From assembly GCA_015064585.1 (NCBI GenBank), contig SVRY01000004.1:1-64000 (forward strand): a stretch of 64,000 nucleotides of DNA, written 5' to 3'. Under the pieces are notes generated by a model, which was not told where the DNA came from, did no database searches, and saw nothing but the letters and a program-made list of their open reading frames with translations. Source of the DNA: Oscillospiraceae bacterium. GTDB lineage: Bacteria > Bacillota > Clostridia > Oscillospirales > CAG-272. A program made the position numbers and the translations under genes. Positions 36,600-57,293 of the stretch are shown here, piece by piece (the first letter of the stretch is position 1; every line of letters starts with the position of its first letter).

Positions 36600-36842
36600 A
36601 AAAGCCCTGAGCCATATTGGCTCAGGGCGAATAAATCCGCGTTACCACCTGAATTCAGTGAAACTGCACTCTGCATAGTACTATCATACTATTCTCCCTG
36701 TAACGGAGGAGATCCGGTTTACCCTACTGAGATACTGTTCGGGCAACGGCTCCAAGACTGCTTCCATATTCTTTTCCCGAGGGGCTTCCACCGTCCCCCT
36801 CTCTCTATGCGGTTTGGAATATGTACTCCTTCTTTTCATAGC
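36600..36842 (-). ncRNA. T-box leader upstream of alaA-type gene; apparent specifier GCA (Ala)
   Basis: Minus-strand sequence has aggAGTAcatattcc ... gaatatgGAAGCAgtc, agagagag, T-box AGGTGGTAACGCGG, and terminator gccctgagcc-aatat-ggctcagggctttttt. Confidence 0.88.
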
Positions 36843-36865
36843 CTTTACTATATATTATTATACTA

Positions 36866-38944: not shown

Positions 38945-38973
38945 TTGACTTTTTGCTTTTATTATGATAAGAT
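38945..38973 (+). promoter_or_regulatory. Putative promoter of the 39-53 kb cluster
   Basis: TTGACT (38945-38950), 17 nt, TAAGAT (38968-38973). Confidence 0.5.
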
Positions 38974-39167: not shown

Positions 39168-42100
39168 ATGAGCAAGTCCATTGGAATCCGGCTTTTGGCC
39201 GGGATTCTCGTATTCGGAATGTTGTTCGGCGGTGCTGCGGTTGGCTCTGCTGCTGATGAAAACAGCAGTGTGCGTAATGATCGTGTGGGCAACCTGTCGG
39301 ATGTTTTGAATACGATTGATTATCAAAGCTATTATGCTAACTACGAAGAAGTTGCTTTTGACAGCAAAGGCAATCCGGTAAATGCCGGCGCAGTGGTTGA
39401 GGTGAACACCTCTGATTATACTGCGACAGATGATGTTAAAAAGATCATTGAGGCACGTAGTGAGCGAGCAAAAGAAGCCCTTGGCGAAGGTGCGGTTTAT
39501 CTGCCCGCCAGCGGCGAGGTTGTGTGGAAGATCCATGTAGAGAAAGCCGGTTTCTATACTTCTACATTCAGCTACTACACTATTATTGATAAAGCTGATG
39601 CAGAGTTGGGTATTGCTGCGAGCAAGAACTCATCCATCGAGCGTAGCCTTTATATTGACGGAGTAATTCCTTATTATGAAGCTACCTACTTGACCATGAG
39701 CAAAACTTATCGTAACTTTGTTACCAAGTACAATGCTGACGGCGAAGAAATCGGCAGCAGTGTTATTTTGGATGGTGAAGAAGGAAACTTTGCTACCGAT
39801 ATTACAGGTAACGAAGTGCGTCCTGAGACTAAACTTGTGGAAGCGCGCAGATCCTACACATTCAGAGATTCTACCGGTTATGTTGTAGAGCCTTTGTATT
39901 TCTATCTGTCTGAGGGCGATCATGAGATCAAGCTGTACGCTCAGAGAGAAGCGGTTGTGATCAACAACTGGGTCTTTGAGGCTGTTGAATCCGAAAACAG
40001 CATTTATACTTATGAAGACTATGTGAAGGACTATACTTCCAAGGGTGCTAAGGATGTTATTCTGAAAGATGCGCTTACGGATGCCTTCAAAAAAGAGCTT
40101 TCTTCCAAGAGAGTATCTTTCCCTTCCGGCATGATTAAATATCAGGCTGAGTACAGTGAATCCGCTTCGGATATTACACTGTATCCTACAACCGACCGTA
40201 CCTCGTGTATCACTGAACCGCAGCATGAATCGAAACAGCATTTGAATACCATCGGCGGCGGTTCTACCGACAGTAAGAAATGGACAACGGTTGGTCAGTG
40301 GATTCGTTACGAAATTGAAGTTCCCGCAAGCGGATTTTACACCATTGCTCCTCGCTTTAACCAAACGCTGCTTGCAGGTTCCTTTGTATCCCGTCAGTTG
40401 CGCGTTCAGCTTCCCGGTGAAGATGAAGCGACGGTTCCTTTCTATGAAGCAAGCTATCTGCGTTTTGGCTATAGCGACGATTGGCAGATAGACTTCCTTT
40501 CCGCTGACGGAAAGACGCCTTTGAAGGTGTATCTCGAAAAAGGTGTTAACTATATTGAATTTGAAGCTAACCTCGGTGACATGGCAAGAATTATCTCTGC
40601 TGTTGATGAGTCTTTGGACAATATCACAGAGGCATATTCGAAAATTCTGATGCTGGTTGGTACCAACCCTGACGAATACCGCGACTATAATTTTAATGAA
40701 CGTATCCCGGATGCGGTTGAAGAGCTTGCACTGCAGGCGGTAAATCTGAAAGCAATCACAGAAGAATTGCAAGCTATCACCGGCTCCAAAGGTAGCCACG
40801 TTGCTACTCTGGAAACCGTAATTCAGCTTCTTGAAAAAATGGGAAGCGATGAAGATGAGATCGCAGGTAACTTGACTACCTTGAAATCCAATATGGGTAC
40901 TTTGGGTACTTGGATTTCCGATTCTCGTGAGTCTCCTCTGGAATGGGACTATTTCTTGATCTGCTCCGGTAACGCGACTAAGAAGAGTCTGCCGGATGCC
41001 ACCGCCGGATTCTTTAAGACTCTGTGGTTTGAAATCAAGATGTTCTTTGCAAGCTTTACCGCTAATTATGATACGCTGGGCGTTATGAACAAGTCTTCCT
41101 TGGAAGACGGCGCTGTAGAAGTATGGTATGCAACCGACCGTGACCGTGCGCAGATCCTGCGTAACTTGGTTACCAATACATTTACCAGCCAAACCAATAT
41201 CGCGGTTAATATGAAGCTGGTTGCAGGCGGTTCGCTGCTTCCTTCTGTACTGGCAGGTGTTGGACCTGATGTATCGTTGGGACACGGCAGTTCTGATGCG
41301 ATCAACTGGGCGATTCGTAGTGCTCTTGTTGAGCTGACTGATTTTGAAGGTGCGCAAGAGATCACCGGTTTCCAGAACGTCATTGCCGAATTCCATGGTC
41401 AGGCAGAAGATAAAGAGGTTGCAGATAAGGCTTGGTTTACCACTTCCGCAACCGTGCCGATGACTCTGCATGAAGTAATCACAGAGGCTGATTACAAGAA
41501 ACTTTCCGCAAAAGAAAAGGCAGAGTATTCTGTATTTACTCCCAAGGAAACCGACTCCGAAGAGGTAAAGAAGGGTACCTATTATGAGAAGTTCTCTCTG
41601 TGGGGCCTGCCTATGGAACAGAGCTTTAACGTAATGTTCTACCGTGCGGATATCTTCAACGAACTGGGAATCGAACCTCCCAGAACATGGGATGACCTGA
41701 ACGCCATCATCGGTGTACTCAGCGCAAACAACATGGAAATTGCAATGCCCACCTCTCTGGGCGGCTTCCAGCTTTTCATGTATCAGAATAACGGTGATAT
41801 GTATAGCAATGCCGGCCAGACGGTATCCTTTGACCAAAACAATTCTTTGGAATCTTTTGAGATGCTTTGCGAGTTGTTCCAGCAATACAAGTTCCCTGTA
41901 GCATATGACTTCTCTAACCGTTTCCGTACCGGTGAAATCCCGATCGGAATTATGCCTTACGGCACTTATACACAGCTGTCTCTGTTCGCTACTGAAATCA
42001 AGGGCTTGTGGGAATTTATTCCGATGCCCGGTGTAGCTACTTATGATGATGATGGTAACATCGTTTCCATCAATAATGAGTCTGTTTCCGGTTCTTCTTG

Positions 42101-42503
42101 TGCGATTATGCTGACCAGCGATGATCGCAGCGAAGCAAAGACCAAGCAGGCTTGGGAATTCATGAAGTGGTTTGTTGGCGAACAATGCCAGACTGACTAC
42201 GCAAATGAGCTGACTGCTTTGTTGGGTACTGAATCCAAGCACAACACTGCCAATATCAATGCTCTGAGAGCGTTGCCTTGGACTACTGCAGAATTGGCAA
42301 GCCTTGAAAGTCAGTTCCAGAACCTGGCAGGTGTACCCGAGTATCCCGGAAGTTACATTATTGCACGTTATGTAAACTTTGCATTCCTGGATGTTGTTAA
42401 CAACAATGCGGATCCTATCCAGTCTTTGCGTGAATACATTACAGCTATTAACTCTGAATTGTCCAGAAAACGTCAAGAATTCGGTCTTGCTTATATGGAC
42501 TAA
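39168..42503 (+). CDS. Giant extracellular solute-binding protein: N-terminal carbohydrate-binding-like modules plus C-terminal SBP_bac_1 domain
   Basis: 1111 aa from ATG 39168. Two similar beta-rich modules (LPASGEVVWKIHVEKAGFYTSTFSYYTI...RSLYIDGVIPYYEATYL / VGQWIRYEIEVPASGFYTIAPRFNQT...RVQLPGEDEATVPFYEASYLRFG); SBP part LPMEQSFNVMFYRADIFNELGIEPPRTWDDLNAIIGVL...FMKWFVGEQCQTDYANE. Confidence 0.88.
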   Translation: MSKSIGIRLLAGILVFGMLFGGAAVGSAADENSSVRNDRVGNLSDVLNTIDYQSYYANYEEVAFDSKGNPVNAGAVVEVNTSDYTATDDVKKIIEARSERAKEALGEGAVYLPASGEVVWKIHVEKAGFYTSTFSYYTIIDKADAELGIAASKNSSIERSLYIDGVIPYYEATYLTMSKTYRNFVTKYNADGEEIGSSVILDGEEGNFATDITGNEVRPETKLVEARRSYTFRDSTGYVVEPLYFYLSEGDHEIKLYAQREAVVINNWVFEAVESENSIYTYEDYVKDYTSKGAKDVILKDALTDAFKKELSSKRVSFPSGMIKYQAEYSESASDITLYPTTDRTSCITEPQHESKQHLNTIGGGSTDSKKWTTVGQWIRYEIEVPASGFYTIAPRFNQTLLAGSFVSRQLRVQLPGEDEATVPFYEASYLRFGYSDDWQIDFLSADGKTPLKVYLEKGVNYIEFEANLGDMARIISAVDESLDNITEAYSKILMLVGTNPDEYRDYNFNERIPDAVEELALQAVNLKAITEELQAITGSKGSHVATLETVIQLLEKMGSDEDEIAGNLTTLKSNMGTLGTWISDSRESPLEWDYFLICSGNATKKSLPDATAGFFKTLWFEIKMFFASFTANYDTLGVMNKSSLEDGAVEVWYATDRDRAQILRNLVTNTFTSQTNIAVNMKLVAGGSLLPSVLAGVGPDVSLGHGSSDAINWAIRSALVELTDFEGAQEITGFQNVIAEFHGQAEDKEVADKAWFTTSATVPMTLHEVITEADYKKLSAKEKAEYSVFTPKETDSEEVKKGTYYEKFSLWGLPMEQSFNVMFYRADIFNELGIEPPRTWDDLNAIIGVLSANNMEIAMPTSLGGFQLFMYQNNGDMYSNAGQTVSFDQNNSLESFEMLCELFQQYKFPVAYDFSNRFRTGEIPIGIMPYGTYTQLSLFATEIKGLWEFIPMPGVATYDDDGNIVSINNESVSGSSCAIMLTSDDRSEAKTKQAWEFMKWFVGEQCQTDYANELTALLGTESKHNTANINALRALPWTTAELASLESQFQNLAGVPEYPGSYIIARYVNFAFLDVVNNNADPIQSLREYITAINSELSRKRQEFGLAYMD

Positions 42504-42512
42504 ATAATTCGT

Positions 42513-42536
42513 ACCGGATCGCCTTCCGGCGATCCG
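42513..42536 (+). promoter_or_regulatory. Perfect intercistronic hairpin between SBP and permease genes
   Basis: ccggatcgcc-ttcc-ggcgatccgg, 10-bp perfect stem, no T-tract. Confidence 0.75.
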
Positions 42537-42569
42537 GACACCAAAATTCAGTATAAGGAGTGAATAAAA

Positions 42570-43538
42570 GTGTCTGAAACGGCAGCTGCAAAAATGCCTA
42601 AAGTTGCCCCTAAAAAGGCAGTTTCCAGAAACGAGATGTCGAAGCTCACTTGGACGCTGAAGGAAATCAAGCGGAACTACATCGCATATTTGATGTTGGC
42701 TCCCTACTACTTTATTTTCCTTACCTTCACGGTTGTCCCGGTCGTTCTTTCTGCGATCCTCAGTTTCACTGACTTTAACATGCTAGAATTCCCTAACTTT
42801 GTTGGAGTCGACAACTATTTGCGACTTTTCTTGGATGACGATATCTTTATTATCGCTGTTCAGAATACGTTGATCTTTGCTGCGATTACCGGTCCTGTAT
42901 CTTACATACTATCCTTTGTCGTTGCATGGTTTATCAATGAACTTCCTCCCAAAATCAGAGCACTCGTAACTCTGGTATTCTACGCTCCCTCTATTTCGGG
43001 TGCTGTATATACCATTTGGGGTGTTGCTTTCTCCGGCGACTCTTACGGTTATGTAAACGGTTTGCTTTTGAAAATGGGTGTTATCGACGGACCTATTCAA
43101 TGGTTTAACAACGCAACCTACGTAATGCCTTTGTGTATTGTAGTTGCATTGTGGACCTCTCTCGGTACCGCGTTCTTGTCCTTCATTGCAGGTCTTCAGG
43201 TTGTTGACCGCAGCTTGTATGAAGCGGGCGCTGTTGACGGTATCAAGAACCGTTGGCAGGAACTTTGGTACATTACACTGCCTTACATGAAGCCCCAGAT
43301 GATGTTCGGTGCTATTCTCTCCATCACCGGCTCCTTCGGCTTCGGCGGTATCGTTACAGCCCTTGCCGGCTTCCCCTCTGTAGACTATGCGGCTCATACC
43401 ATTACTCACCATTTGGATGACTACGGTGGAGCCCGTTACGAAATCGGCTACGCTTCTGCGATTGCTACTGTACTGTTTATCTTGATGTATGCAGCAAACG
43501 TTGGCGTTCAGAAATTGTTATCAAAGGTGGGACAATAA
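42570..43538 (+). CDS. MalF/UgpA-type sugar ABC permease
   Basis: GTG start; LMLAPYYFIFLTFTVVPVVLSAILSFTDF; EAA loop LYEAGAVDGIKNRWQELWYITLPYMKPQM. Confidence 0.93.
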   Translation: MSETAAAKMPKVAPKKAVSRNEMSKLTWTLKEIKRNYIAYLMLAPYYFIFLTFTVVPVVLSAILSFTDFNMLEFPNFVGVDNYLRLFLDDDIFIIAVQNTLIFAAITGPVSYILSFVVAWFINELPPKIRALVTLVFYAPSISGAVYTIWGVAFSGDSYGYVNGLLLKMGVIDGPIQWFNNATYVMPLCIVVALWTSLGTAFLSFIAGLQVVDRSLYEAGAVDGIKNRWQELWYITLPYMKPQMMFGAILSITGSFGFGGIVTALAGFPSVDYAAHTITHHLDDYGGARYEIGYASAIATVLFILMYAANVGVQKLLSKVGQ

Positions 43539-43539
43539 C

Positions 43540-44415
43540 ATGAGTAAAAAACTTAGAACAAGAAGACATGCCGTTGTCCTGAACCGTTCAGCGGGTGGCG
43601 ACGCCGGTATTACATTCTTCTTAACAATTTTGGGTGTCTTCATGTTTCTTCCGATGCTGTACACAGTTCTGCAGTCTCTGAAGCCTCTGGATGAACTTTG
43701 GACATTCCCTCCCAGATTCTGGGTTTACAATCCCAGCTTTAAAAACTACGGAGATTTGTTCCGTTTGATGAATACATCGTGGGTTCCTTTCTCCCGTTAC
43801 ATATTCAATACGGTTTTGATCTCCGTAACCGGTACTGCAGGTAACTTGATTCTTGCATCACTGGCGGCATATGTTTTGTCCAAGATCAAATTCCCCGGCA
43901 GAGGATGGATGTTCCAGCTGATTGTTAAATCGCTGATGTTCCACTCCACAGTCGGCGGTATCACAACCTTCCTGATCCTGTCCAAAGTTGGAATGGTTGA
44001 CAACATTCTGTCGGTTATCATTCCTGCTTGGGGTTCCACTTTGGGTCTGTACCTTATGAAACAGTTTATGGAAAGCTCGGTTTCCGATGCGGTTTTGGAA
44101 TCTGCCCGTCTTGACGGTGCAAGCGAACTGCGTACATTCCTGGTAATTGCGATGCCAATGGTTAAGCCTGCATGGCTGACACTGATCGTATACTCCTTCC
44201 AGGGACTTTGGAACTCCGGTTCTTCCATCTACATTTACAGTGAACAGCTCAAAACATTTAACTATGCAATCTCGCAGATCCTTGCGGGCGGCGTGGTGCG
44301 TGCCGGTGCCGGTGCAGCATCCGTTGTTATCATGATGTTAGTTCCGATTTTGGTATTCGTTATTACTCAGAGTAACATTATCGAAACAATGTCTTCTTCC
44401 GGTATGAAAGACTAA
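43540..44415 (+). CDS. MalG/UgpE-type sugar ABC permease
   Basis: EAA loop LESARLDGASELRTFLVIAMPMVKPAWLTLIVYSFQGLWNSG. Start ATG 43540. Confidence 0.92.
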   Translation: MSKKLRTRRHAVVLNRSAGGDAGITFFLTILGVFMFLPMLYTVLQSLKPLDELWTFPPRFWVYNPSFKNYGDLFRLMNTSWVPFSRYIFNTVLISVTGTAGNLILASLAAYVLSKIKFPGRGWMFQLIVKSLMFHSTVGGITTFLILSKVGMVDNILSVIIPAWGSTLGLYLMKQFMESSVSDAVLESARLDGASELRTFLVIAMPMVKPAWLTLIVYSFQGLWNSGSSIYIYSEQLKTFNYAISQILAGGVVRAGAGAASVVIMMLVPILVFVITQSNIIETMSSSGMKD

Positions 44416-44429
44416 AGGGGGATATCATT

Positions 44430-46565
44430 ATGAAAAAATTAATAAGAATCATCGCCCTTGCGTTTGTTATGGTGTTGGTTTTTGGTACAGTTTCTGCCAG
44501 TGCAGCGGCGTACACAACCTATACTTACTCATTCGGCGGTCAACCCCTGAGTTCTCCCGATGCATATAGTCCTTATAAGCAGATCGATTCACAGTATATG
44601 GATCTGTCGGTTCCGTTGAATACACCTTCGGATCTGTATATTGATGATCTTGGTTTGATTTATATTGCGGACCCTTCTAACCACAGAATTGTTGTATTGG
44701 ATGAGAATTACAAGTTCTCTTATGAGATCAAGAGTTTCACCAACGTGTCCGGTAACCCTGACTCGTTGAATGCAGCGCAGGGTGTAGCTGTTGCAAATGG
44801 CAAAATCTACATCGCTGACACCCAGAACAGCCGTATCGTTGTTCTGGACCGTGAAACACAAAAGTGTGTTGCGATTCACAACACTCCCGATGCCGATGTT
44901 GTAAAAGAAGGTTCTATCTACAGTCCTGTAGCTCTCTCTGTTGACAATGCCGGCAGAATGTATGTTGTATCTTCTACCACCATCGATGGTATTATTTCTC
45001 TGAATGCAGATGGTTCTTTCGCATCCTTTATTGGTGCACAGAAAGTAACCTACAATGCATTGGAATTGTTCTGGCGCCGTTTCCAGTCCGAAGAAGAACG
45101 CGAAGCAGCAGAGCAGAATGTATCCGTAACATACAATAATATTTGTATAGATAAAGACGGCTTTATTTATGTTACTACTGAAAACATCGATGAGAATTCT
45201 CAGCAAAACGCAATTAAGAATAAAGACAAAGGCGGCGACTATGCTCCTGTTAAAAAGCTGAATGCAAAAGGTAACGAAATCATGCGTCGTAACGGTTTCT
45301 GGCCGCCTTCCGGTGAAGTTGCCGTACGTAATCAGTATGAAGTAGGCGAGGGCGATGTCAGCGGTGCTTCCAAGATTGTAGACGTTGCGATCGGACCTGA
45401 AGAAACTTGGTCTATTATCGACCAGAAGAGAAGCCGTATTTTTACCTACGATAAGAACGGTAACCTTCTGCACGTATTTGGCGATACCGGTACTCAAATG
45501 GGTAACCTGAAGATGGCCGGCGCGATCGTATATCAGGGAACTTCCATTCTTGTATTGGATAAGACCGAAAACGCATTTACTGTTTATAATATTACCGACT
45601 ACGGAAAAATTCTTCTGGAGGCTTTGCGCTTGACCAATAACCGCCAGTTTACTGAAGCTGTTGAGTATTGGGAAACCATTCTTCAGAGTAATAACAATTA
45701 CGATGCTGCATATGTAGGTATCGGAGATGCTCACTATCGTTCCGGTGACTACGAAAAGGCAATGGATAACTATAAAGTTGCTTCTGACACAGAAAGCTAT
45801 TCTGAAGCTTTCAAGCGTTGGAGAAAAGATGCAGTTAATGATTATCTGTTGCTGATAATTATCGTTGTAGTTGTATTCTTGGTTATTGTTGCCAAGTACA
45901 TGAGTTTTGCAGGTAAGGTGAACAAGCGTGTAGCTACGCAGGGCGGAAAGAGAAAATTCTACGAAGAGTTCTTGTATGCGCATCACGTTATGTTCCATCC
46001 GTTTGACGGGTTCTGGGATTTGAAGCATGAAAAGCGCGGTTCTGTGCGCTCGGCAACTGCTTGGTTAGCAATTACAGTTGCAGCATTCTGCTACAATTCT
46101 ATTGGTAAGTCCTATTTGTTCGCAAACGGTGCTCCCGGCAGTGTAGTCGGAACGATGATGAGTGTACTGGTACCTGTTTTCCTGTGGGTACTTGCAAACT
46201 GGTGCTTGACCACTCTGTTTGAGGGTGAAGGAAGCTTCAAAGATATTTATGTGGCAACATGCTACGCTTTGGCGCCCATGCCTTTCCTCATTATTTGTAC
46301 AACCGCATTGACACATGTGTTCTCGCTGTCTGAGGAAGGATTTGTTTCCTTGATCATGGGTCTTGCATGGGTTTGGTTCTTTATGTTGCTGTTCTTCGGA
46401 ACAATGGTTACTCACGACTTCCAGATGGGTAAGAACATTATTACGATGATTGCAACAGTAGTTGGTATGGCGGTTATCATGTTCGTCGCGATCCTCTTCT
46501 CGGGTCTGTTGATTAAGATGGCAACCTTTGTATCCAATATCATCACGGAATTGACCTTTAGTTAA
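44430..46565 (+). CDS. Secreted/membrane NHL-repeat + TPR + YIP1 domain protein
   Basis: Signal peptide; NHL-like PSDLYIDDLGLIYIADPSNHRIVVLDENY, AQGVAVANGKIYIADTQNSRIVVLD; TPR AYVGIGDAHYRSGDYEKAMDNYKVAS; TM LLLIIIVVVVFLVIVA; C-terminal YIP1-like multi-TM FLYAHHVMFHPFDGFWDLKHEKRGSVRSATAWL. Confidence 0.85.
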   Translation: MKKLIRIIALAFVMVLVFGTVSASAAAYTTYTYSFGGQPLSSPDAYSPYKQIDSQYMDLSVPLNTPSDLYIDDLGLIYIADPSNHRIVVLDENYKFSYEIKSFTNVSGNPDSLNAAQGVAVANGKIYIADTQNSRIVVLDRETQKCVAIHNTPDADVVKEGSIYSPVALSVDNAGRMYVVSSTTIDGIISLNADGSFASFIGAQKVTYNALELFWRRFQSEEEREAAEQNVSVTYNNICIDKDGFIYVTTENIDENSQQNAIKNKDKGGDYAPVKKLNAKGNEIMRRNGFWPPSGEVAVRNQYEVGEGDVSGASKIVDVAIGPEETWSIIDQKRSRIFTYDKNGNLLHVFGDTGTQMGNLKMAGAIVYQGTSILVLDKTENAFTVYNITDYGKILLEALRLTNNRQFTEAVEYWETILQSNNNYDAAYVGIGDAHYRSGDYEKAMDNYKVASDTESYSEAFKRWRKDAVNDYLLLIIIVVVVFLVIVAKYMSFAGKVNKRVATQGGKRKFYEEFLYAHHVMFHPFDGFWDLKHEKRGSVRSATAWLAITVAAFCYNSIGKSYLFANGAPGSVVGTMMSVLVPVFLWVLANWCLTTLFEGEGSFKDIYVATCYALAPMPFLIICTTALTHVFSLSEEGFVSLIMGLAWVWFFMLLFFGTMVTHDFQMGKNIITMIATVVGMAVIMFVAILFSGLLIKMATFVSNIITELTFS

Positions 46566-46582
46566 AGAAAGGAGATAGAAAC

Positions 46583-49500
46583 ATGAATAGCATGAAAAAA
46601 ATCATAGCGTTTCTTCTGGCTGTCTGCACCGTAGTAGGCACCATGACATCTCTTTTGATGGTCTCCGGTGGTGTGTCTGTTTATGCTGATGAAGCAGAAA
46701 CAGAAGAAACAGTATCCAATAATGTAGATGCTTGGTCGTATTTTACCACCAAGTATGCCAGCGATATCGAAAAACTGCATAAAATGAGCAAGTTCATTGA
46801 GAATGAACAGTTTGCTCTTTACGGTCTAGAAAAAACCGGTGAAGTTGCTGTAGAAAACAAGAAAACCGGACAGATCATGTTCAGTAATCCTCGTGATATC
46901 TACCTGTACTCCACCGCCACCGCTGATACTAAAGCAAAAGAGAATGCTGAATTTAAAGATCTGGCATCTCAGCTCTTTGTTGACTTTACAATCATCTCTA
47001 CAAACGAAAATCAAGTTCTCAACAGCTATGCCGATGCTGCGATGAACAACCAGATCACCATGTCAGCCATTAAGAATGGTGTTGCGGTTGAGTATACCAT
47101 TGGTACCGGTGACGATCGTAAGCTGGTTCCCATGAACATTGAAAAAACTCGTTATGAAGAGAACATTCTGAATCTGATTGAAGACCCCAACGCATATAAA
47201 CGTATGAGTTCGCAGGGCGGTATCTACTCCCTGAAGGACCCTACGGCGGTTTCCGAAGTTCAGAAGGAGCTGATGTATGAACAGTATCCTGTAATCGAGA
47301 AAAAAGGCATTGCGATTTATGTCTGCGACGAAAACCTTTCGAACTATGAAAAGAACAAGATCGAAGGTTGGATTCGTGCTTGGGCTCCCAAGTATACATT
47401 TGAAGAATTGGAATATGACCATGAATTGACTGAATATGTTGGTTCTAACAAGGTTATGCCCGTGTTTAAGATGGCTTTGGAATATAAGCTGACCGATGAC
47501 GGATTTACCGTTCGTTTGCCCGCTTCGTCCATCACATTTGATGAAGACTATTTCAAGCTCAATTCTGTAACAATTCTTCCCTATATGGGTGCCGGTTCTT
47601 CCGAATACGATGGCTATACTTTGGTTCCCGACGGTTCCGGTACAATTCTTCGTTTCGAAGATCTGCGCTCCTACAATATCTACAAATTGCTCGGAGAACT
47701 GTACGGTCCCGACAATGCATACCATACTTTTAGCGAAAGCTATACAGGTAAGATGGAAGTGTGGAGATATCCTGTTTTTGGTATGGTAGAGAATTTCTAT
47801 CGTTACTTTAACAACGATACCAACAAGGAATACTGCGGACATACAACTCGCACACTGCTCAGCACTGTGCCTGCAAGCTGTTCAACTGAAGGTTATTCCA
47901 ATTACAAGTGTGACATTTGCGGAGAAGAAATGAAGGATGACTTTGTTGCTGCGACTCACCCCGAGTCGAGCCTTAAGAAGGTTGTTCCGCTTTCCACCCC
48001 CGCAAGTTGTGTGAATGTTGCCACTGATGTGTATGTATGTATCGAATGTGGTATGTACGTATACAAGTACGGTGAGGCAATTGGCACTGCTCACTGCTAC
48101 GAAACCCTTGATAATGGCGATAAGATTTGCAAATCCTGTAATAAGTATACTCCTGCAACTCCTGTTGAAGCATTCAAAGCACCTGAAGGATATACAAAAA
48201 ATCTTGCAAAATCTACTCCCGCTACCTGTACCACTGCAGGCGAAGATGTTTACTCGTATACTCCTGTTGCGGATGAAAATGGCGTAATTCCTGAATATGA
48301 TCCCAGTGAGTATCCGGACATTCCTGTAAAAGTGTTGCCTTTGGGCCATGGCATTCAGATTAAAAAATATGCTTCCAGCTGCCGCGAAGGTTATTCGATA
48401 GTTTCCTGCAAGACCTGTAATATTCAGTTTAGCGTTTTTGGTACTGATTTTGAACAGGCTCCTGTTGGATACACTCCCGATGCAAGTACTACCAAGGCAC
48501 CTACTTGTACCGAGGACGGAAAAATCGTCTTTGTTAAGAAAGATGCTGAGAACATTGAAGTTACTGTTCCCGCCAGACATCAATTTGTGATCGTTACATC
48601 AGTAGATGACAAGGGAGACGGTAAGAACGTAGAAGTAGTCTATACAGCTATTTGTACTGCATGTGGTCATTCTGTTGAAGACGTAGAAAAAGTTGAACCG
48701 TCCAAGACTTATGAGAATCCGTCTAAAGTTTTGACTCATGTTGAAGTTACCGATGGTGATAAGACTATCGAAGGTTATCTGATCAAGACAAATCCCGTGA
48801 AGATTACTTCCTCTTCCTCAAATCACAGATATGTTGCAATCAAGGAAGTGGCAAGCGATTGCGAAACCGGCGTACAGGGTTATACCATTCGTTGCTGTTA
48901 TGGTTGCGGTGATGTAATTGTTGAAGCAAATGTAGGTTGCCATGAATGGGATAACGGTGTACAAAAGTATGCCGCTACAGTAGCAACCACCGGTTTGAAG
49001 CTTTTCACCTGTGGTGTATGTAAAGCAATCAGATACGAAATTACCGCAAAAATCGAAAAGGTAGACAGCATTCCTCTGGATAATCTCTACCTTACTCTGA
49101 CCGGTGGCGAAGAGCCTGTAACCGGCACAATTGAACTGAAAGAATTTGCTGATTTCGATACTGAAGAGAATCGCGCTGCGCTGGTTTATACAACCAGTGA
49201 TGAAAAGATCGCAACTGTAGCTAATGGTGTTATTACTGCAGTTGGTGCAGGTCAAGCAACTATTACAGTTTCTCTGACTGTAGGCGATACTATTGTTTAT
49301 AACGCTACTTGTGTTGTAATCGTAGAAGCTGCTGCTGATGATGAAACCAGTACTGTTGTTAAGGTAGAACAACCTGCGAACACCTATAAGAAGTTTGACC
49401 CACGCGGTTATGTGGCGATTATTACCGAAGGTGAATCTCTGTGTACCGTAACATCTATTCATGGTGGTACAATTTACAAGTATAATTCGGTATACTTGAC

Positions 49501-51436
49501 TGTTAATCCCCGTCCTTCCGATACATATGAATTGACCGGTGCGCTGACAGTTTCCGGTGACGCAAAGTATACTGTAGTATCTGACCGTAAGTACACCGGC
49601 AGTTACCGTATTCGTTACTACATGCTTTCCGATCAGGAAGACAGTGATTTCGAAGCTTCCTATGCAGGAATGGCGAAAGCATATCGTCACTACTTGGAAG
49701 TATCCGGTCAGCTGACCGATTTGAAGGCTACAGAAAATATCCCGTTGTACTTGGAAACTTTGGGTTCTGTTAAGGTAAACGATACTTTCTTGAGCATGCC
49801 GATCGTAAAAGATGCTGCGCTGACCAGCTTCGATGATATCATCAAGATCAATGATGAGCTGAAAGCTGCCGGCATCACCAACATTCAGTATCGTTTGACC
49901 GGTTACACCAACGGTGGTATGGTTCCCACTATGCCTTATGATATTGAGTTTGTTGAGGTTCTGGGCGGCAACTCCGGCTATAAGAAGTTGATGGCATATG
50001 CAGAAAAGAACGGAATTGGTATTTATACCGACTACGACTTTACTTATATGCATGCAGATGAATGGTTTGACGGATATAGCAATGGTGATCATGCTGTAAA
50101 GGCAATTGACGACCGTTACATTATTAAGAAGACCTACGATGCAACTTATCAGGCATTTACCCCCACTGCTTTGTTGGCAGTTTCCCCTTCTGTCTTTGAA
50201 TATTTCTATGATCACTTCGTTGTTGAAGATAAGAAACTGGGCTCTACCGGTATTTCGGTTTCCACTTTGGGTACTGATCTTAACTCCGACTTTGACAGTG
50301 ATGAGCCTTACAACCGTGAGGACAGCAAATTGTTCGTTGAAGAGGTGCTTGCAAAAATGGAAGCAGACTATAACGGCAAGGTAATGACGGACGGCGGTAA
50401 CTCTTATGTTCTTCCCTATGCGCAACACATTTTGAATATGTCGTTGCTTGGTAGTGAAAGAATGAAGACCAGTGCTTCTGTTCCCTTCTTCTCCATGGTT
50501 CTTCATGGCGCAGTAAACTATGCGGGCAAACCTACCAATATGGCGAGCAGTATGAATGAAGAGATCCTGCGCATTATCGAAAACGGTGCAGCTCCTTACT
50601 TTGTACTTGCATATCAGAACCAGTCCGCACTGAAAGAAAGCAAGTCGTTGTCTAAGTACTATGCAGTCTCCTTCTCTCATTGGAAGAAGGATATCATCGA
50701 TGTATACAACGAACTGAACAGTGTTCTTGGCGGTCTGCAAAATGCTACCTATAACAACCATGAATATCTCACTGCTGAACGTGTTCCCGGCGAAGTTGAA
50801 TATACAGCCAGCTACGAAAAACTGATTGATGAAATCATTGCACTCTTTGAAAAATATGAGACTGCCAGCGATAATCTCAAGAAGTCCCAAGAGCTGTTGG
50901 ATAGATATATCGCTCCGATCAATGAAGCAGGCGCAGAAATTGAAGTTTTGGTAGAAAAGGTTAACAACGGAACAGCAACCGAGGCTGATATTCTCCTCAT
51001 TAATGAAAAAGTTGCCGAGCTTTCTGTTACGATTAACGCAGTTAACAAGTATGAAAGCAACGTTGCAAACAAAGAAACTGCACTTATCACTGCAGAGAAC
51101 AACCTACGCAAGAAGCTTGAAACCGTTACCGGCCTGTTTGATGTAAGCAATATAATGGATAAGAGCCAGTACACAAAAGAAAACTTTAAGGGTTATGGTT
51201 CCTTTGTTGATGGTAAGTTTACCCCTAGAGCCGATGACTTCACCAGTGTAAACGGTACTTATGTTACCACCGATTACACTGTAAGCGATAGCTCGGTTGT
51301 ACGTACCGGTTGGGATAAAAACGGCGACAAGAAGGATGATGTTGTGATTCTTCTCAACTACAACACCTTTGATGTTTATGTTTACATTGACGGCAAACCC
51401 GTTGTAATCCCTGCTATGGGCTACGTAGTACAGTGA
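46583..51436 (+). CDS. DUF5696-like secreted protein interrupted by Cys-rich repeats and a Big_2-like domain
   Basis: 1617 aa; signal peptide; DUF5696-like FTVRLPASSITFDEDYFKLNSVTILPYMGAGSSEYDGYTLVPDGSGTILRF and ENIPLYLETLGSVKVNDTFLSMPIVKDAALTSFDDIIKINDELKAAGITNIQYRLTGYTNGG. Insert contains KCDICGEEM, VCIECGMYV, ICKSCNKYT, SCKTCNIQF, RCCYGCGDVI, TCGVCKAI and VYTTSDEKIATVANGVITAVGAGQATITVSL. Confidence 0.85.
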   Translation: MNSMKKIIAFLLAVCTVVGTMTSLLMVSGGVSVYADEAETEETVSNNVDAWSYFTTKYASDIEKLHKMSKFIENEQFALYGLEKTGEVAVENKKTGQIMFSNPRDIYLYSTATADTKAKENAEFKDLASQLFVDFTIISTNENQVLNSYADAAMNNQITMSAIKNGVAVEYTIGTGDDRKLVPMNIEKTRYEENILNLIEDPNAYKRMSSQGGIYSLKDPTAVSEVQKELMYEQYPVIEKKGIAIYVCDENLSNYEKNKIEGWIRAWAPKYTFEELEYDHELTEYVGSNKVMPVFKMALEYKLTDDGFTVRLPASSITFDEDYFKLNSVTILPYMGAGSSEYDGYTLVPDGSGTILRFEDLRSYNIYKLLGELYGPDNAYHTFSESYTGKMEVWRYPVFGMVENFYRYFNNDTNKEYCGHTTRTLLSTVPASCSTEGYSNYKCDICGEEMKDDFVAATHPESSLKKVVPLSTPASCVNVATDVYVCIECGMYVYKYGEAIGTAHCYETLDNGDKICKSCNKYTPATPVEAFKAPEGYTKNLAKSTPATCTTAGEDVYSYTPVADENGVIPEYDPSEYPDIPVKVLPLGHGIQIKKYASSCREGYSIVSCKTCNIQFSVFGTDFEQAPVGYTPDASTTKAPTCTEDGKIVFVKKDAENIEVTVPARHQFVIVTSVDDKGDGKNVEVVYTAICTACGHSVEDVEKVEPSKTYENPSKVLTHVEVTDGDKTIEGYLIKTNPVKITSSSSNHRYVAIKEVASDCETGVQGYTIRCCYGCGDVIVEANVGCHEWDNGVQKYAATVATTGLKLFTCGVCKAIRYEITAKIEKVDSIPLDNLYLTLTGGEEPVTGTIELKEFADFDTEENRAALVYTTSDEKIATVANGVITAVGAGQATITVSLTVGDTIVYNATCVVIVEAAADDETSTVVKVEQPANTYKKFDPRGYVAIITEGESLCTVTSIHGGTIYKYNSVYLTVNPRPSDTYELTGALTVSGDAKYTVVSDRKYTGSYRIRYYMLSDQEDSDFEASYAGMAKAYRHYLEVSGQLTDLKATENIPLYLETLGSVKVNDTFLSMPIVKDAALTSFDDIIKINDELKAAGITNIQYRLTGYTNGGMVPTMPYDIEFVEVLGGNSGYKKLMAYAEKNGIGIYTDYDFTYMHADEWFDGYSNGDHAVKAIDDRYIIKKTYDATYQAFTPTALLAVSPSVFEYFYDHFVVEDKKLGSTGISVSTLGTDLNSDFDSDEPYNREDSKLFVEEVLAKMEADYNGKVMTDGGNSYVLPYAQHILNMSLLGSERMKTSASVPFFSMVLHGAVNYAGKPTNMASSMNEEILRIIENGAAPYFVLAYQNQSALKESKSLSKYYAVSFSHWKKDIIDVYNELNSVLGGLQNATYNNHEYLTAERVPGEVEYTASYEKLIDEIIALFEKYETASDNLKKSQELLDRYIAPINEAGAEIEVLVEKVNNGTATEADILLINEKVAELSVTINAVNKYESNVANKETALITAENNLRKKLETVTGLFDVSNIMDKSQYTKENFKGYGSFVDGKFTPRADDFTSVNGTYVTTDYTVSDSSVVRTGWDKNGDKKDDVVILLNYNTFDVYVYIDGKPVVIPAMGYVVQ

Positions 51437-51452
51437 AAGGAAGTGACTACAG

Positions 51453-52448
51453 GTGAAAAAGGGAAAAATGAACCTAAAATCTGTTGAGGGCAGTGCAGCA
51501 ACTATTGTTGCTGCAAAGCCCGCAAAGCGGAAAAATGTATCCCTTGACAAAAAGAAAGCAAAGGCCGGATGGCTGTTTGTTCTGCCCTTTGTTCTGGGAT
51601 TTATACTCATCTATCTTCCGATTATTAAAGACTCCATTGTTTTTAGCTTTTCTAAGATCACCGTTGCATCCAGTGAATGGATCGGTTTTGATAACTATCA
51701 AGCAGTAGTGAAAAACTCACAGGTTATACAGACCTTGGTTTCCAGCTTGAAGGACTTGATTTTGGATATTCCCGCAATCGTTATCTTCTCTCTGTTTATG
51801 GCAGTAATGCTGAATCAGAAAATGCTGGGTCGTGCCGCATTCCGTGCAATCTTCTTTATCCCCGTTATTCTGTCTACCGGGTTGATCGACCAGATCAACC
51901 ATAGTGACAGTTCTTTGATGGATCAGATGCAGCAAGAAGTTGATACCGGCGGAACCGGCTCTTCCGCATCTGAGATTATCGCTGCAGCGGATATTGCAAA
52001 ATTGTTTAGTGCGATGCAGATTGGTACCGGACTTGTAAAATATGTAACCAATCTGGTTAACGAAATTTACGATATTATTAACCGTTCCGGTGTTCAGATG
52101 CTGATCTTCCTTGCAGGTTTGCAATCCATCTCCCCTGCAATTTATGAATCTTGCTCCATTGATGGTGCAACTGCTTGGGAAACATTCTGGAAGATTACCT
52201 TCCCCATGATTTCCCCCATGATCCTTGTAAACTCGATTTACACCGTAATCGACTCTTTCACCAGCAGTGATAATGAAATGATGACCATGATTTATGACAC
52301 ATTTAATGGTAAGGGCCCGATTACAAACGCAGGTAGCCGCGCAATCAGTTCGGCTATGGGTTGGCTATACTTTATCATCGTTATTGCGATTATCGGTGTG
52401 GTCGCCGCTGTACTGTCTGCGTATGTCTTCTACCAGCGAAGAGACTGA
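51453..52448 (+). CDS. Sugar ABC permease (MalF-type), second pair
   Basis: GWLFVLPFVLGFILIYLPIIKDSIVFSFSKI; EAA loop IYESCSIDGATAWETFWKITFPMISPMILVN. Confidence 0.9.
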   Translation: MKKGKMNLKSVEGSAATIVAAKPAKRKNVSLDKKKAKAGWLFVLPFVLGFILIYLPIIKDSIVFSFSKITVASSEWIGFDNYQAVVKNSQVIQTLVSSLKDLILDIPAIVIFSLFMAVMLNQKMLGRAAFRAIFFIPVILSTGLIDQINHSDSSLMDQMQQEVDTGGTGSSASEIIAAADIAKLFSAMQIGTGLVKYVTNLVNEIYDIINRSGVQMLIFLAGLQSISPAIYESCSIDGATAWETFWKITFPMISPMILVNSIYTVIDSFTSSDNEMMTMIYDTFNGKGPITNAGSRAISSAMGWLYFIIVIAIIGVVAAVLSAYVFYQRRD

Positions 52449-52466
52449 TGAAAGGAGGAAGAAACA

Positions 52467-53516
52467 ATGAACGAACAAACTACAGCTCCGAAAATCAAAA
52501 AAGAAACCAAAAACAAGATTCGCGTTGAATTTGACCGCGTTTCTGGTTGGGAACGTTTTAAGCTCAAGTATTTGACTTTCCGTTTCCTTGGCATGACGAT
52601 TTTCAAATTCTTCCGTTTCATCCTTTTGATCGGTATTTCGTATGTAATTATCTATCCTTTTATAGCGAAAATCGCGGCTTCTATCATGAGCCCCGAAGAT
52701 ATTACAAACGTAACGGTAAAACTGATTGCCAAGAGTCCTACTTTGGATCAGTATAAGTACATCATACTTGAGAATAACTTCTTTAAAGCTTTGTGGAATA
52801 CTACGGTATTGAGCTTGACTTGTGCACTGCTGCAAACGTTTATTTGTTGCCTTGTTGCATACGGTTTTGCGAAGTTTAGATTCAAGGGTAACAAGTTCCT
52901 GTTTTTGCTTGTTATTTTGACGATGGTCGTACCTCATGGCGTGCTTCAGTTCTCCATGCAGCAGAATTTTGCTTACTTTGATGTACTGGGTATTTTCGGC
53001 CTTCTTGAGAAGATTGGTATTGGTAGCGGTTCCATCCGTTTGGTGAATACCAACATTCCGTTATATATGCTTTCCGCAGGAGCAATCGCATTTAAGAACG
53101 GTTTGTACATCTTTATGTTGCGTCAGTTCTTCAAAGGCGTTCCGGATGAATTGGAAGAATCTGCATACATCGATGGCTCCGGTGTATTTAGAACATTCTT
53201 TACCATTATTCTGCCGCTTTCCATTCCCATGATGATTACAGTATTCCTGTTTGCGTTCTCTTGGCAGTGGACTGATAACTTCTATACCGATCTTCTTTAT
53301 ATTGGCGGTGATAAACCTATCTTGATGCCTGATATTGTTGCGGTTCCTCCCAAGCTCGCGCTTGATTCCAGTTATCCCAACAAGGCGATCAGCGACTATA
53401 CTTCCGCAGTAAAGAATACAGCAGGTCTTTTGATCATGGCTCCGCTGATGGTCATCTACCTGTTCTGCCAGAAGTATCTTGTACAAGGTATCGAACGTTC
53501 CGGTATCGTTGGTTAA
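52467..53516 (+). CDS. Sugar ABC permease (MalG-type), second pair
   Basis: EAA loop DELEESAYIDGSGVFRTFFTIILPLSIPMMITVFLFAFSWQWTDNF. Confidence 0.9.
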   Translation: MNEQTTAPKIKKETKNKIRVEFDRVSGWERFKLKYLTFRFLGMTIFKFFRFILLIGISYVIIYPFIAKIAASIMSPEDITNVTVKLIAKSPTLDQYKYIILENNFFKALWNTTVLSLTCALLQTFICCLVAYGFAKFRFKGNKFLFLLVILTMVVPHGVLQFSMQQNFAYFDVLGIFGLLEKIGIGSGSIRLVNTNIPLYMLSAGAIAFKNGLYIFMLRQFFKGVPDELEESAYIDGSGVFRTFFTIILPLSIPMMITVFLFAFSWQWTDNFYTDLLYIGGDKPILMPDIVAVPPKLALDSSYPNKAISDYTSAVKNTAGLLIMAPLMVIYLFCQKYLVQGIERSGIVG

Positions 53517-53567
53517 TAATAATCAATTTTAAAAACCAAAAAGGTGCTGTAAAAAGTCTCTAAATAA

Positions 53568-53612
53568 GAAAGACTATGAGTTCAAAAAAATGAGCTCATA
53601 GTCTTTTTTATC
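53568..53612 (+). terminator. Rho-independent terminator of the sugar-transport cluster
   Basis: aaagactatgag ... ctcatagtctttttt inverted repeat with T-tract. Confidence 0.8.
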
Positions 53613-53774
53613 AGAAAATGTACGATCAAAAGTGAATTTGTTTTGTAATATGAGTATCTTGCAAAATATGCGGTTATGTGATATAATAAGGGCGTATAAG
53701 TGTTTGCAAATTTTCTCGATAGATGATATCTAAATACAACACAAACAATATTTATATTTTATGGAGGTGCTGTT

Positions 53775-56700
53775 ATGAAAAAAAGATTGTTTTCTCTTCT
53801 GCTCGTGGTATGTATCACTATATTAGCACTCGTAGGATTGACCTCTTGTGGTGAAGATTCTCCTACTGCAACGCCGCAAAAGCTGTCGGTTCCTATTGTT
53901 ACGTTGACCGACAATGTAGCATCTTGGGGTGCAGACTCAAATGCGGATAAATTTGAGATCAGCCTTGATGGAAATTTATCCTACGTTGAAAACTCCGTTA
54001 CAAGTAAAACATTGACAGACGGACAAACCTTCAAAATTCGTGCCGTGGGTGACGGAAGCTCGTATTCTACAAGTGATTGGAGTAACAGCGTAACTTATAC
54101 GGCTAATACTTCTGTGCATCAGCCTACGAAGCTTGGTACGCCTGCCGTTACAATTTCGGGTGAAGGTCTTGCAAGCTGGACGGTGGTAGTTAATGCAAGC
54201 AGCTACATTTACAAGATCAACGGCGGTACGGAAACGCCTACAACCGCAACCTCTGTACAGCTTACCGACGGTCAGAGCATCGTTGTAAAAGCGGTTGGTG
54301 ACGGTATAAACTACACCGATGGTGATTACAGTACTTCTAAGACCTATACTTCCGGCGCTCCCACTCCCACGGAAGCTCCCACATACCTTGGCATATTTGC
54401 TTCTAACAACGAACCTTCGCAGGCAGATGGATTGCCCGGCACATTTGCTGTTCGTTCTATGATGATGACGTATCGAATGATGCGTGCAGGAAGCTATCGT
54501 GTATTTGGAACGGCGCTTGATGAGTATTTTGCAGATAGCAATAACCACTTAGGTGTAAATATTCCGGCAGAATCCGATTATGAGATTTATTCACGAGCCG
54601 GCGAAACCGTTTATATACAAATTTGGCTCAATAATCCGAATCAGCACACGATCCTTTCCTTGAAGTTGAACGGAACGAAATATCAGGTTGGTGGCGGTCT
54701 TTCCTCTTTCTTTATCGAGAAAGGCGGTCAGCGCTATAATTGTGTTTACGTTGCGGTTACGATTCCAAGCGGTGCTTATACGGAAAAGACCTATACGGTT
54801 ACCGATATTGAGTACATTGCAGATACCTATATCAACGCGGACGGTACGGACGAGTTTATGAACAACAACGATACCGTGAGCATTGGTTTACCTTATAATG
54901 CACAAAATCCCACATTATCCGGTTTCAACCCAACTTCTCTTACTGTAAATAGTTGCTCGGCAACACTTACGGTGACGGATGCAAGCGGCATCTTAAATCT
55001 GACCGGCGGTTGGCTTGGTATCGCCGTATATGACGGATATAGTATTATAGCAAATCAAAGCCTAGTTATTGGCAACAATTCCGTAAGCGTAACAGGTCTT
55101 GTGGAAAACACGACCTATTGGATTACAGTTTACTTGTATGCTGATTTACACGACGGCAATGGCGTAACTGCACATATACTGTTTGAGAAGACCATACGTA
55201 CACCTGAAGCAATTGCCGTTGACGAAATACGAGGCGCGCTTTTATACGACGCCGAAAAAGACGGGTACTACGCTGCTATCAATGTGAACACCAGTTTGAA
55301 TAGCAACACCGCAGAATATATCAAGCTTGAAATTTTGAATTATGACGAAGATGTCATTTACACCGATGCCGACTATAACGGAACAGCCATTGTATCAAGC
55401 GGTATTGCGGGTGGAAATGGATACATCGTCCGCGTTTACTATGAGGATATCGAATATCCCGAAGGAAAATACATTGAGGAAAGCGTTTGGGTAGCCTCTC
55501 TTGGTACTCCGTGGTATCACGAAGAAGGTACTTATCCGTTGGTAAACGACGTTGTGCATTATTTCCAGTTTAATAACTTCGATGAAAACTATCCTGCGAT
55601 TAGCAGCCTTACCTTAAAGTATTACGATGAGGAGAGCGCAAGATGGGTTGCGAGCGACGTGCTGTATCTTCTTGAAAATCCCAATGCAATTGAGGATCTC
55701 AATGCGCAAATCGATGTGCTTTGGGCTAAAATGAATGAACTGCCTCGCGGCGAGGAAATGGATGCCGTATACAAGCAGATACAGGAGCTTGAAGCACGTC
55801 GTGCTCCGCTTGATTATGCGCTTTGGTATCTTGAAAACCGCGCCGACAACAACCGTGACAAGGCATTTTGGCAAGTTGAGGCGGCAAAGGGAAAGTACTA
55901 CTATGAGATCGTATATAACGGAACAGATACCGAAACAATGTTTAAGGTAGGACAGACCTATTACGTAGTACTTGAAAACGCGCTGTGGCTTGACGGAGGT
56001 AATCAATACAGAAACTTAAAGCTGGATATCGACTACGAAACCGTAGGCGGTGAGAGCGGTGCCAAAAGTGAGGATATTAGCATAGAAAATCTCTTCATTT
56101 GCAACCTGCTTGAGCTAAGAGAAATTCAGATCAATGGCAACGAGATGACCTTCTATCTTGTAAATATTGACGATTATATGCTTCCCGATGGCGGTGAATC
56201 CAACTACGAAAAGGCGTTTCTGTATAAAATAGTAGCCCACGCAGGCACAATCGATGAAACAGTCCTTTACCTCAACGAAAGCAATCTTAAGCTCAACGTG
56301 GATGAGGAAGCTTGGTTTGCCGAATATATCCGCCGCATAAAGGCAGGCGAGAACACCGAGGGACTTTACGATCAGTTTATTCCCAAATACAACGCTTCCT
56401 ACACCATAGCTATTGACGGTTCTAAGATTAGCGCAGGTATAATTTCCCTACAGATCTACACCAGGTGCAGAGAAAAGGTATATGCCGAGGGCGAGTACGA
56501 GGATGTGGTATATAAAACCCTGTTTATCAAAAAGCAACTCGCCAGACCTACCGTAGTGTTTGATGAAAACGGTGGCAGAGGCTCGGCTGAGGGTTCTGAA
56601 GGCTGGGAAAGCGGCTATGAGTATGAGGCGCAGAACAAATACGGTATACCTGTTGATCTTGAAATGATCGACTCCTTTAGCTTCGCCCTGCCTCCCGTTG

Positions 56701-57293
56701 GTACTATGATCAGAGCGAAAAGATTGGGTTCTGAATTTTGGCTTGACAGCGAGTGGAGTGAGTGGTATACATTTGAAGGCATCAAGATTTCCGCGCCTGA
56801 GTTTGGCGATTATGATACCGCGCGCTGTAAAATAAGCTGGTTTGTTTGGGATACTTCGCTCATATCTCATTACGTTTATACCATCAATGGTGGCGCAACT
56901 GTAAGAGTAGAGCTTGACGAAGCTCTCACGGTATTTCTGAAGAACGGCGACGTTCTTCGCGTAAAATGTGTTCCCAATGCCGAAGGTATTGCAAAGGGAT
57001 ACGTTGACGGTGAATGGGCGGTATATACCTGCGTTGATAACAGAGCAGTGCTTTCCGTTCCCACCAACCTGAGAATTGCAGATAAGATTCTTTGGTGGAA
57101 TGCGGTGGACGGAGCGATGTATTACGTGGTTGAAATAACCTACGAGGGCAAAACCACTGAAAGAATAGTAAAATCTAATGACATGGCTCCTCCTATGCCC
57201 GGAAGAACTTATAGGGTAAGAGCCCTTGCCGAAGATCAGGAAAACTACAGATCGAGTGATTGGAGCGAAAGCATAACCTATACAAGTAAATAA
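53775..57293 (+). CDS. Large lipoprotein with Fn3-like modules at both ends, function unknown
   Basis: 1172 aa; lipobox VGLTSCGED; N-terminal duplicated module (LSVPIVTLTDNVASWGADSNADKFEISLDG...IRAVGDGSSYSTSDWSNSVTYTA; LGTPAVTISGEGLASWTVVVNASSYIYKING...VKAVGDGINYTDGDYSTSKTYTS); C-terminal module ending VRALAEDQENYRSSDWSESITYTSK. Confidence 0.85.
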   Translation: MKKRLFSLLLVVCITILALVGLTSCGEDSPTATPQKLSVPIVTLTDNVASWGADSNADKFEISLDGNLSYVENSVTSKTLTDGQTFKIRAVGDGSSYSTSDWSNSVTYTANTSVHQPTKLGTPAVTISGEGLASWTVVVNASSYIYKINGGTETPTTATSVQLTDGQSIVVKAVGDGINYTDGDYSTSKTYTSGAPTPTEAPTYLGIFASNNEPSQADGLPGTFAVRSMMMTYRMMRAGSYRVFGTALDEYFADSNNHLGVNIPAESDYEIYSRAGETVYIQIWLNNPNQHTILSLKLNGTKYQVGGGLSSFFIEKGGQRYNCVYVAVTIPSGAYTEKTYTVTDIEYIADTYINADGTDEFMNNNDTVSIGLPYNAQNPTLSGFNPTSLTVNSCSATLTVTDASGILNLTGGWLGIAVYDGYSIIANQSLVIGNNSVSVTGLVENTTYWITVYLYADLHDGNGVTAHILFEKTIRTPEAIAVDEIRGALLYDAEKDGYYAAINVNTSLNSNTAEYIKLEILNYDEDVIYTDADYNGTAIVSSGIAGGNGYIVRVYYEDIEYPEGKYIEESVWVASLGTPWYHEEGTYPLVNDVVHYFQFNNFDENYPAISSLTLKYYDEESARWVASDVLYLLENPNAIEDLNAQIDVLWAKMNELPRGEEMDAVYKQIQELEARRAPLDYALWYLENRADNNRDKAFWQVEAAKGKYYYEIVYNGTDTETMFKVGQTYYVVLENALWLDGGNQYRNLKLDIDYETVGGESGAKSEDISIENLFICNLLELREIQINGNEMTFYLVNIDDYMLPDGGESNYEKAFLYKIVAHAGTIDETVLYLNESNLKLNVDEEAWFAEYIRRIKAGENTEGLYDQFIPKYNASYTIAIDGSKISAGIISLQIYTRCREKVYAEGEYEDVVYKTLFIKKQLARPTVVFDENGGRGSAEGSEGWESGYEYEAQNKYGIPVDLEMIDSFSFALPPVGTMIRAKRLGSEFWLDSEWSEWYTFEGIKISAPEFGDYDTARCKISWFVWDTSLISHYVYTINGGATVRVELDEALTVFLKNGDVLRVKCVPNAEGIAKGYVDGEWAVYTCVDNRAVLSVPTNLRIADKILWWNAVDGAMYYVVEITYEGKTTERIVKSNDMAPPMPGRTYRVRALAEDQENYRSSDWSESITYTSK

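Follow-up and report, generated by a model that had tools for sequence, protein, structure and literature searches.

A conserved seven-gene operon of the CAG-272 family and the candidate double CUT1 importer it encodes

Among the oligosaccharide importers of Gram-positive bacteria that are of the ATP-binding cassette (ABC) type and of the carbohydrate-uptake (CUT1, maltose/MsmX) class are ManHIJ of Bacillus sp. N16-5 (PMC4792470) and, in Anaerocellum bescii, the xyloglucan transporter Athe_2052-2054 (PMC12710961). A shared MsmK/MsmX ATPase for such importers has been shown by deletion in C. bescii (PMC8579813). Here, we analyze a seven-gene operon in a 64,000-nucleotide stretch of DNA (the window) from an Oscillospiraceae bacterium of the CAG-272 family (assembly GCA_015064585.1, contig SVRY01000004.1, positions 1 to 64,000). 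Like Athe_2052-2054 and ManHIJ, this locus combines a solute-binding protein (SBP) with a MalF/MalG pair and contains no ATPase; unlike them, it has two permease pairs and an SBP of about 1000 amino acids (aa) with extra N-terminal domains, and adds an NHL-TPR-YIP1 protein and a DUF5696 protein, the order of all seven genes being fixed. Within its family the cluster is a core locus, and it is a real, strongly conserved operon. We hold, with modest confidence, that it encodes a dedicated double CUT1 importer made up of two modules, A and B, with dispersed receptors and a shared MsmX-type ATPase.

Operon structure, conservation and spread

The seven genes lie on the plus strand at 39168-53516, are separated in order by 66, 1, 14, 17, 16 and 18 bp, and are each preceded by a plausible ribosome site. 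An earlier annotation made from the DNA alone (the sequence-only reading) had described seven consecutive plus-strand genes with short gaps, a clear terminator at about 53.6 kb, two MalF/MalG-type pairs with four EAA loops, and only one SBP in the locus. All of this is borne out: the gaps span 1-66 bp, a hairpin with a U tract closes the operon, the permease pairs are recovered by PF00528 and by sequence, and Pfam finds a single SBP in the locus. The domains named in that reading stand as well, through matches to PF01547/PF13416, PF00528, NHL with TPR and Yip1, and PF18952. PF00528 (BPD_transp_1) is found in all four permeases, two of which score 1.5-1.7 bits under the cut-off, and the EAA loops are directly legible in all four, as expected of MalF/MalG-type permeases of a CUT1 system. 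Judging the genome's other five permease matches by size and neighbors, we consider these four its sole CUT1-type permeases. The features of the system are as follows.

32099..33214, plus strand: MsmX/UgpC-type ATPase (NF008653, 482.8 bits; the only one above cut-off in the genome)
38945..38973, plus strand: candidate promoter, TTGACT-17-TAAGAT with TG before the second hexamer (consensus match only)
39168..42503, plus strand: giant SBP, 1111 aa, module A (domains, predicted model)
42570..43538, plus strand: MalF-type permease 1, module A (PF00528, 3.4e-6; EAA loop YEAGAVDGIKNRWQELWYITLP)
43540..44415, plus strand: MalG-type permease 1, module A (PF00528, 2.1e-5; NF008210, 5e-18; EAA loop LESARLDGASELRTFLVIAMP)
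44430..46565, plus strand: NHL beta-propeller, TPR, transmembrane and YIP1 fusion, 711 aa, module B (Pfam)
46583..51436, plus strand: DUF5696 (PF18952) protein, 1617 aa, predicted GH129-like fold, module B (Pfam, model of a homologue)
51453..52448, plus strand: MalF-type permease 2, module B (PF00528, 1.9e-5; PDB match to AlgM1, 1.5e-14; EAA loop YESCSIDGATAWETFWKITFP)
52467..53516, plus strand: MalG-type permease 2, module B (PF00528, 2.5e-10; EAA loop EESAYIDGSGVFRTFFTIILP)
53564..53612 (about), plus strand: intrinsic terminator closing the operon (hairpin of -28.6 kcal/mol, z -8.3, U tract)

Promoter-like sites around the operon are no more numerous than in shuffled sequences, which limits how the candidate promoter is to be read.

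Conservation of the locus within the CAG-272 family is nearly complete. Of 198 family genomes, 184 encode DUF5696, among them 116 of the 118 with a completeness of 90% or more; 69 of 71 genera are represented. For 60 genomes (about 50 genera) we took a stretch of at most 20 kb each, picking genes in two passes, and found all seven genes in identical order in 59 of the 60 loci; the sixtieth ends at a contig edge, and two of the 59 complete loci have one gene with a broken reading frame. No conserved flanking genes were found in these 60 loci. The family groups together in all seven gene trees, with weak to moderate support (0.42-0.75).

Within the family, the genes fall into two co-varying modules. 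Correlations of pairwise distances reach 0.81-0.84 (mean 0.82) among the giant SBP, MalF-1 and MalG-1, and 0.70-0.82 (mean 0.78) among YIP1, DUF5696, MalF-2 and MalG-2, compared with a mean of 0.33 across modules. This partition is the best of all splits into three and four genes (0.459, with the runner-up at 0.301), and the contrast is stable when genomes are resampled. The giant SBP itself follows permease pair 1 (r 0.82-0.84) far more closely than pair 2 (0.36-0.45). Among all the loci compared, modules A and B stand in swapped order in three (L143, L146 and L149), and module B occurs without an adjacent module A in two others (L136 and L139), with giant SBPs found elsewhere in those genomes (G259 and G279).

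Beyond the family, DUF5696 is patchy, occurring in 48 of 399 genomes of a phylum-wide sample. The sequence-only reading had pointed to similar SBP/permease/YIP1/DUF5696 neighborhoods in other Firmicutes and called for a gene-neighborhood comparison; this comparison now places the cassette in other Bacillota, with 20 loci from other families carrying the same genes, mostly in the same order. A further set of at least 80 loci (the named loci) was picked by similarity to the giant SBP, among the matches listed. In the 80 listed, Paenibacillus dominates, and further carriers are Alkalihalobacillus, Halalkalibacter, Amphibacillus, Lederbergia, Neobacillus, Cohnella and Thermobacillus, along with metagenome-assembled genomes of Herbinix, Treponema and Dictyoglomus; nearly all loci with enough contig sequence have the cassette, and most of the 80 keep the same order. 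Cassettes in other lineages often adjoin mannanases, xylanases or pectinases: of 74 downstream proteins near named cassettes, eight are of glycoside hydrolase family 26 (GH26), seven of GH10 and five of GH5, and GH113, GH30, GH43, GH20, GH28 and pectate lyase also occur, with LacI or AraC/two-component regulators upstream. These neighbors are our main ground for proposing glycan import, and their variety suggests that the cassette is not bound to one polymer.

Other genes of the window lie outside this unit. A 1172-aa lipoprotein (53775-57293; lipobox Cys25, no Pfam domain) had been grouped with the cluster. It lies beyond the terminator, with a promoter-like site of its own (TTGCAA-17-TATAAT at 53659-53687), and none of 60 related loci, a sister genome of the same genus included, encodes a homologue; it thus does not belong to the operon. 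On the minus strand, three clustered genes (23513-25510, 25966-26643 and 26640-27422) encode polysaccharide-deacetylase-domain proteins, one with Big_2 domains, which are possibly envelope or glycan modification genes. A T-box leader (minus strand, 36620-36848, 120 bits) lies upstream of an aminotransferase gene.

Receptors, scaffold protein and ATPase

The giant SBP has a signal peptide without a lipobox, then a pair of N-terminal beta-sandwich domains, and ends, after a helical spacer, in a MalE-type domain. Its C-terminus matches PF01547/PF13416 (SBP_bac_1/8), and in a structure model of the window's protein (pLDDT 83, pTM 0.82) Foldseek places the MalE-type domain near oligosaccharide-binding proteins, in keeping with a family-1 type SBP of a CUT1 importer. 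For the second sandwich, the match is to a cycloisomaltooligosaccharide glucanotransferase (5x7g, E 1.1e-8) at residues 414-520, a segment that we take to be the CBM35 of that enzyme, and we hence call the sandwich CBM35-like. Since the giant SBP has no lipid anchor, its signal helix, partner proteins or glycan must keep it in place. One candidate holder is the NHL-TPR-YIP1 protein. In most Paenibacillus-type loci this protein is encoded by two genes, one for the NHL-TPR part (about 490 aa, with a helix at the C-terminus) and one for YIP1 (206-230 aa, five helices), which identifies the window's version as a fusion.

Cassettes elsewhere contain a second receptor. In 69 of 77 named loci, the gene immediately before that of the giant SBP encodes a protein of 430-560 aa, and some loci have a second SBP downstream instead. 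Nearly all of these upstream proteins belong to one homologous group, the second SBP (median identity 32%), and 87% of them have a lipobox, as against 3-8% of giant SBPs. One locus (L135, 12100-17898) has four tandem small SBPs downstream of one cassette, which hints at several receptors per importer. The second SBP is absent from all 60 sampled loci of the CAG-272 family.

Homologues of this second receptor persist in the family as orphans. A profile built on the cassette's second SBP (A8) has three matches in the window's genome, two in tandem on contig C64 (L245, 9106-12438) and one on C15 (L246, 2635-4335), all MalE-like lipoproteins; this count rests on the A8 search and about 366 kb that were read. 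In two other genomes (G025 and G039) the profile has at least 40 matches each, compared with 13 and 16 BPD permeases of all kinds. We inspected 42 orphans in context: they measure about 446-566 aa, most have a lipobox, and BPD_transp_1 is absent from the 25 commonest of their 84 neighbor families. Pfam (11 of 37) or PDB matches identify them as solute-binding proteins. Their match to the cassette's second SBP, over 396 columns, has an E-value of 5e-48, as against 9e-5 for the giant SBP, and they form a separate clade in the tree. From PF01547 counts, the cluster had seemed to hold the genome's only sugar SBP; we dropped this idea when A8 found three more SBP-like proteins, and the single-SBP reading of the genome is wrong because PF01547 misses many orphans. 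Upstream of the tandem pair on C64 is a 346-aa gene that we had considered as a permease; it is FkbM methyltransferase-like, which rules this out.

The sequence-only reading also noted that there was no ATPase, which is true of the cluster itself and does not extend to the window: its MsmX/UgpC-type ATPase, of the MalK/MsmX type that CUT1 importers use, is encoded 6 kb upstream of the operon. Proteins over the curated NF008653 cut-off occur in 58 of 69 family genomes. CUT1 importers commonly have no ATPase gene in their own locus and share MsmX/MsmK. Because the genome has an MsmX-type ATPase, the lack of a local one is not unusual, and the protein encoded at 32099-33214 likely energizes the importer.

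Fold and catalytic positions of DUF5696

The PF18952 match of the window's protein is strong (5.5e-136; 455 bits against a curated cut-off of 25.6). The gene, described earlier as split, is one open reading frame of 1617 codons in which the domain is interrupted by an insert of about 530 residues (47795-49390) containing CxxC repeats and an Ig-like stretch. DUF5696 proteins of the family range from 915 to 2036 aa, so this insert evidently varies across lineages. We modeled an insert-free homologue (L217, 854 aa; AlphaFold2, pLDDT 89, pTM 0.86), and its best Foldseek matches are GH129 enzymes (ZgGH129, E 7.7e-34, TM-score 0.70 by target; NagBb, TM-score 0.73), followed by GH101. In a sequence-profile comparison DUF5696 matches ZgGH129 at 1.3e-8, both ends and the barrel being covered by colinear segments; hhalign to a single GH129 protein gives a C-terminal match only (E 0.007), and the GH129 profile PF11308 has no match in the window's genome at E 0.001. 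Predicted fold and sequence together identify DUF5696 as a distant GH129-fold homologue. The sequence-only statement that there is no recognizable glycoside hydrolase is correct by Pfam and fails in that DUF5696 is such a remote relative.

Catalytic columns were mapped by sequence alignment to one GH129 protein, not by superposed structures, and three alignment modes agree that the presumed nucleophile position is the Asp of an RDLG motif. At this column, 79 of the 97 proteins from outside the family have Asp; none of the 61 family proteins does (Thr in 47, Ser in 11). Asp711 of L217 is likewise kept in 89 of 97 outside the family and lost inside, and both catalytic columns are acidic in 31 of the 97. 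The pairing of an Asp nucleophile with a Glu acid/base that characterizes GH129 is thus not found in the family. Six residues (Asp350, Asp377, Asp1236, Arg1245, Asn1273 and Glu1333 in the window's numbering) are conserved almost everywhere, suggesting that a functional pocket persists. Since Asp is missing from the nucleophile position in all 61 family members, we prefer a role in binding or docking, which is likelier here than ordinary hydrolysis. The earlier suggestion that DUF5696 could act as a novel hydrolase is right as to a hydrolase-like fold and distant sequence kinship.

Proposed mechanism, alternatives and related systems

We propose that in module A the non-lipidated giant receptor, with its MalE-type domain and two N-terminal carbohydrate-binding-like domains that would hold a long chain, feeds permease pair 1. 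Module B would combine permease pair 2 with a membrane scaffold, consisting of an extracytoplasmic NHL propeller, TPR and multi-helix YIP1, and with DUF5696, which, probably without ordinary hydrolase chemistry in this family, would serve as a subunit that binds glycan or docks receptors. A second receptor, a lipoprotein, is part of the cassette in other lineages. In the CAG-272 family, the locus no longer has this receptor, its homologues being dispersed, and sometimes much multiplied, as orphan lipoproteins; pair 2 is therefore likely a hub that several receptors may feed. A shared MsmX-type ATPase would drive both permease pairs.

Several observations weigh against this model. The window's own genome has only three of the orphan receptors that, we suggest, may deliver to pair 2. 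The genes scanned around the cluster in the window mostly concern amino-acid metabolism, with no glycoside hydrolase recognized, so glycan cargo in this organism rests on relatives. Outside the family the module contrast is small (0.90 across modules, 0.93-0.94 within), and even within the family it is no proof of physical pairing, because neighboring genes can share history via recombination. Finally, 46 of 61 family DUF5696 proteins have an acid at the presumed acid/base column, and the near-universal Asp1236, Arg1245, Asn1273 and Glu1333 could support unusual catalysis.

Catalysis is central to a possible, if unlikely, alternative in which the operon encodes two ordinary CUT1 importers, NHL-TPR-YIP1 is an anchor, and DUF5696 is an active surface GH129-like alpha-glycosidase that trims substrates. 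The GH129 fold and sequence, the nucleophile Asp in 79 of 97 proteins outside the family, 31 of which have the acid/base acid too, and the enzyme-rich neighborhoods of other lineages fit this alternative, yet the nucleophile column is Asp in 0 of 61 family members, both columns are acidic in just 31 of 97 proteins elsewhere, and the columns derive from alignment to one GH129 protein. A bolder form of our own proposal, that all seven products form one stable assembly and thereby a novel class of ABC importer, seems to us unlikely; such an assembly would join four permeases to a YIP1/NHL/TPR scaffold, use a catalytically repurposed glycosidase for docking, and act in this family as a single genome-wide hub for dispersed orphan receptor lipoproteins.

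We think it quite unlikely that the operon is a core cell-envelope system, with an importer for recycling or sensing surface glycan or wall material of the cell itself and not glycans from the environment. Such a role would explain the single copy and near-universality of the locus in the family, and agrees with the absence of conserved flanking genes there and with the polysaccharide-deacetylase genes in the same window. However, elsewhere the cassette adjoins plant-polysaccharide hydrolases and LacI/AraC sugar regulators, and the giant SBP's domain resembles oligosaccharide-binding proteins. That the single giant SBP serves both permease pairs, as the sequence-only reading had suggested from the one SBP in the locus, is highly improbable: the giant SBP co-varies with pair 1 and far less with pair 2, and relatives' cassettes hold a second SBP whose homologues persist as orphans.

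Returning to the double importer, the system appears to be a widespread variant of the CUT1 importer that is, provisionally, undescribed. No paper found names DUF5696, in a search made mostly without subscription papers; literature on YIP1 with ABC importers, NHL repeats, paired permeases and orphan SBPs does not, again provisionally, describe the system, and the accessible portions of the Caldicellulosiruptor and Dictyoglomus literature do not mention it. The sequence-only view of an operon-like cluster with no assigned function, probably for glycan uptake, in which NHL-TPR-YIP1 and DUF5696 are uncharacterized, is supported. Firm and new are the conservation of the locus, its two co-varying modules and the kinship of DUF5696 with GH129, as traced by profile and predicted fold. 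If our model is true, an entire family of Bacillota with small genomes relies on a single undescribed importer, the same cassette serves users of mannan, xylan and pectin such as Paenibacillus, and two orphan families, DUF5696 and NHL-TPR-YIP1, gain a testable role.

DUF5696 resembles GH129 (NagBb, 5wzn; ZgGH129, 5opq) and GH101 in predicted fold over its whole length, with TM-scores of 0.70-0.73; unlike GH129, it has no nucleophile Asp in this family and no PF11308 match in the window's genome, and is encoded inside a transporter cassette in the loci inspected. The orphan-receptor pattern recalls the Bug/TctC receptors of tripartite tricarboxylate transporters in Bordetella, where many orphan extracytoplasmic receptors accompany few permeases, and differs in transporter class and phylum; under our model, orphan receptors would let one importer take many substrates. 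By analogy only, the combination of a conserved import core with variable hydrolases parallels the SusCD loci of Bacteroidota. Unlike SusCD, the system described here is an ABC importer with no TonB-dependent outer-membrane system and, if our model is true, would be the ABC-type equivalent of the import core that polysaccharide utilization loci conserve.

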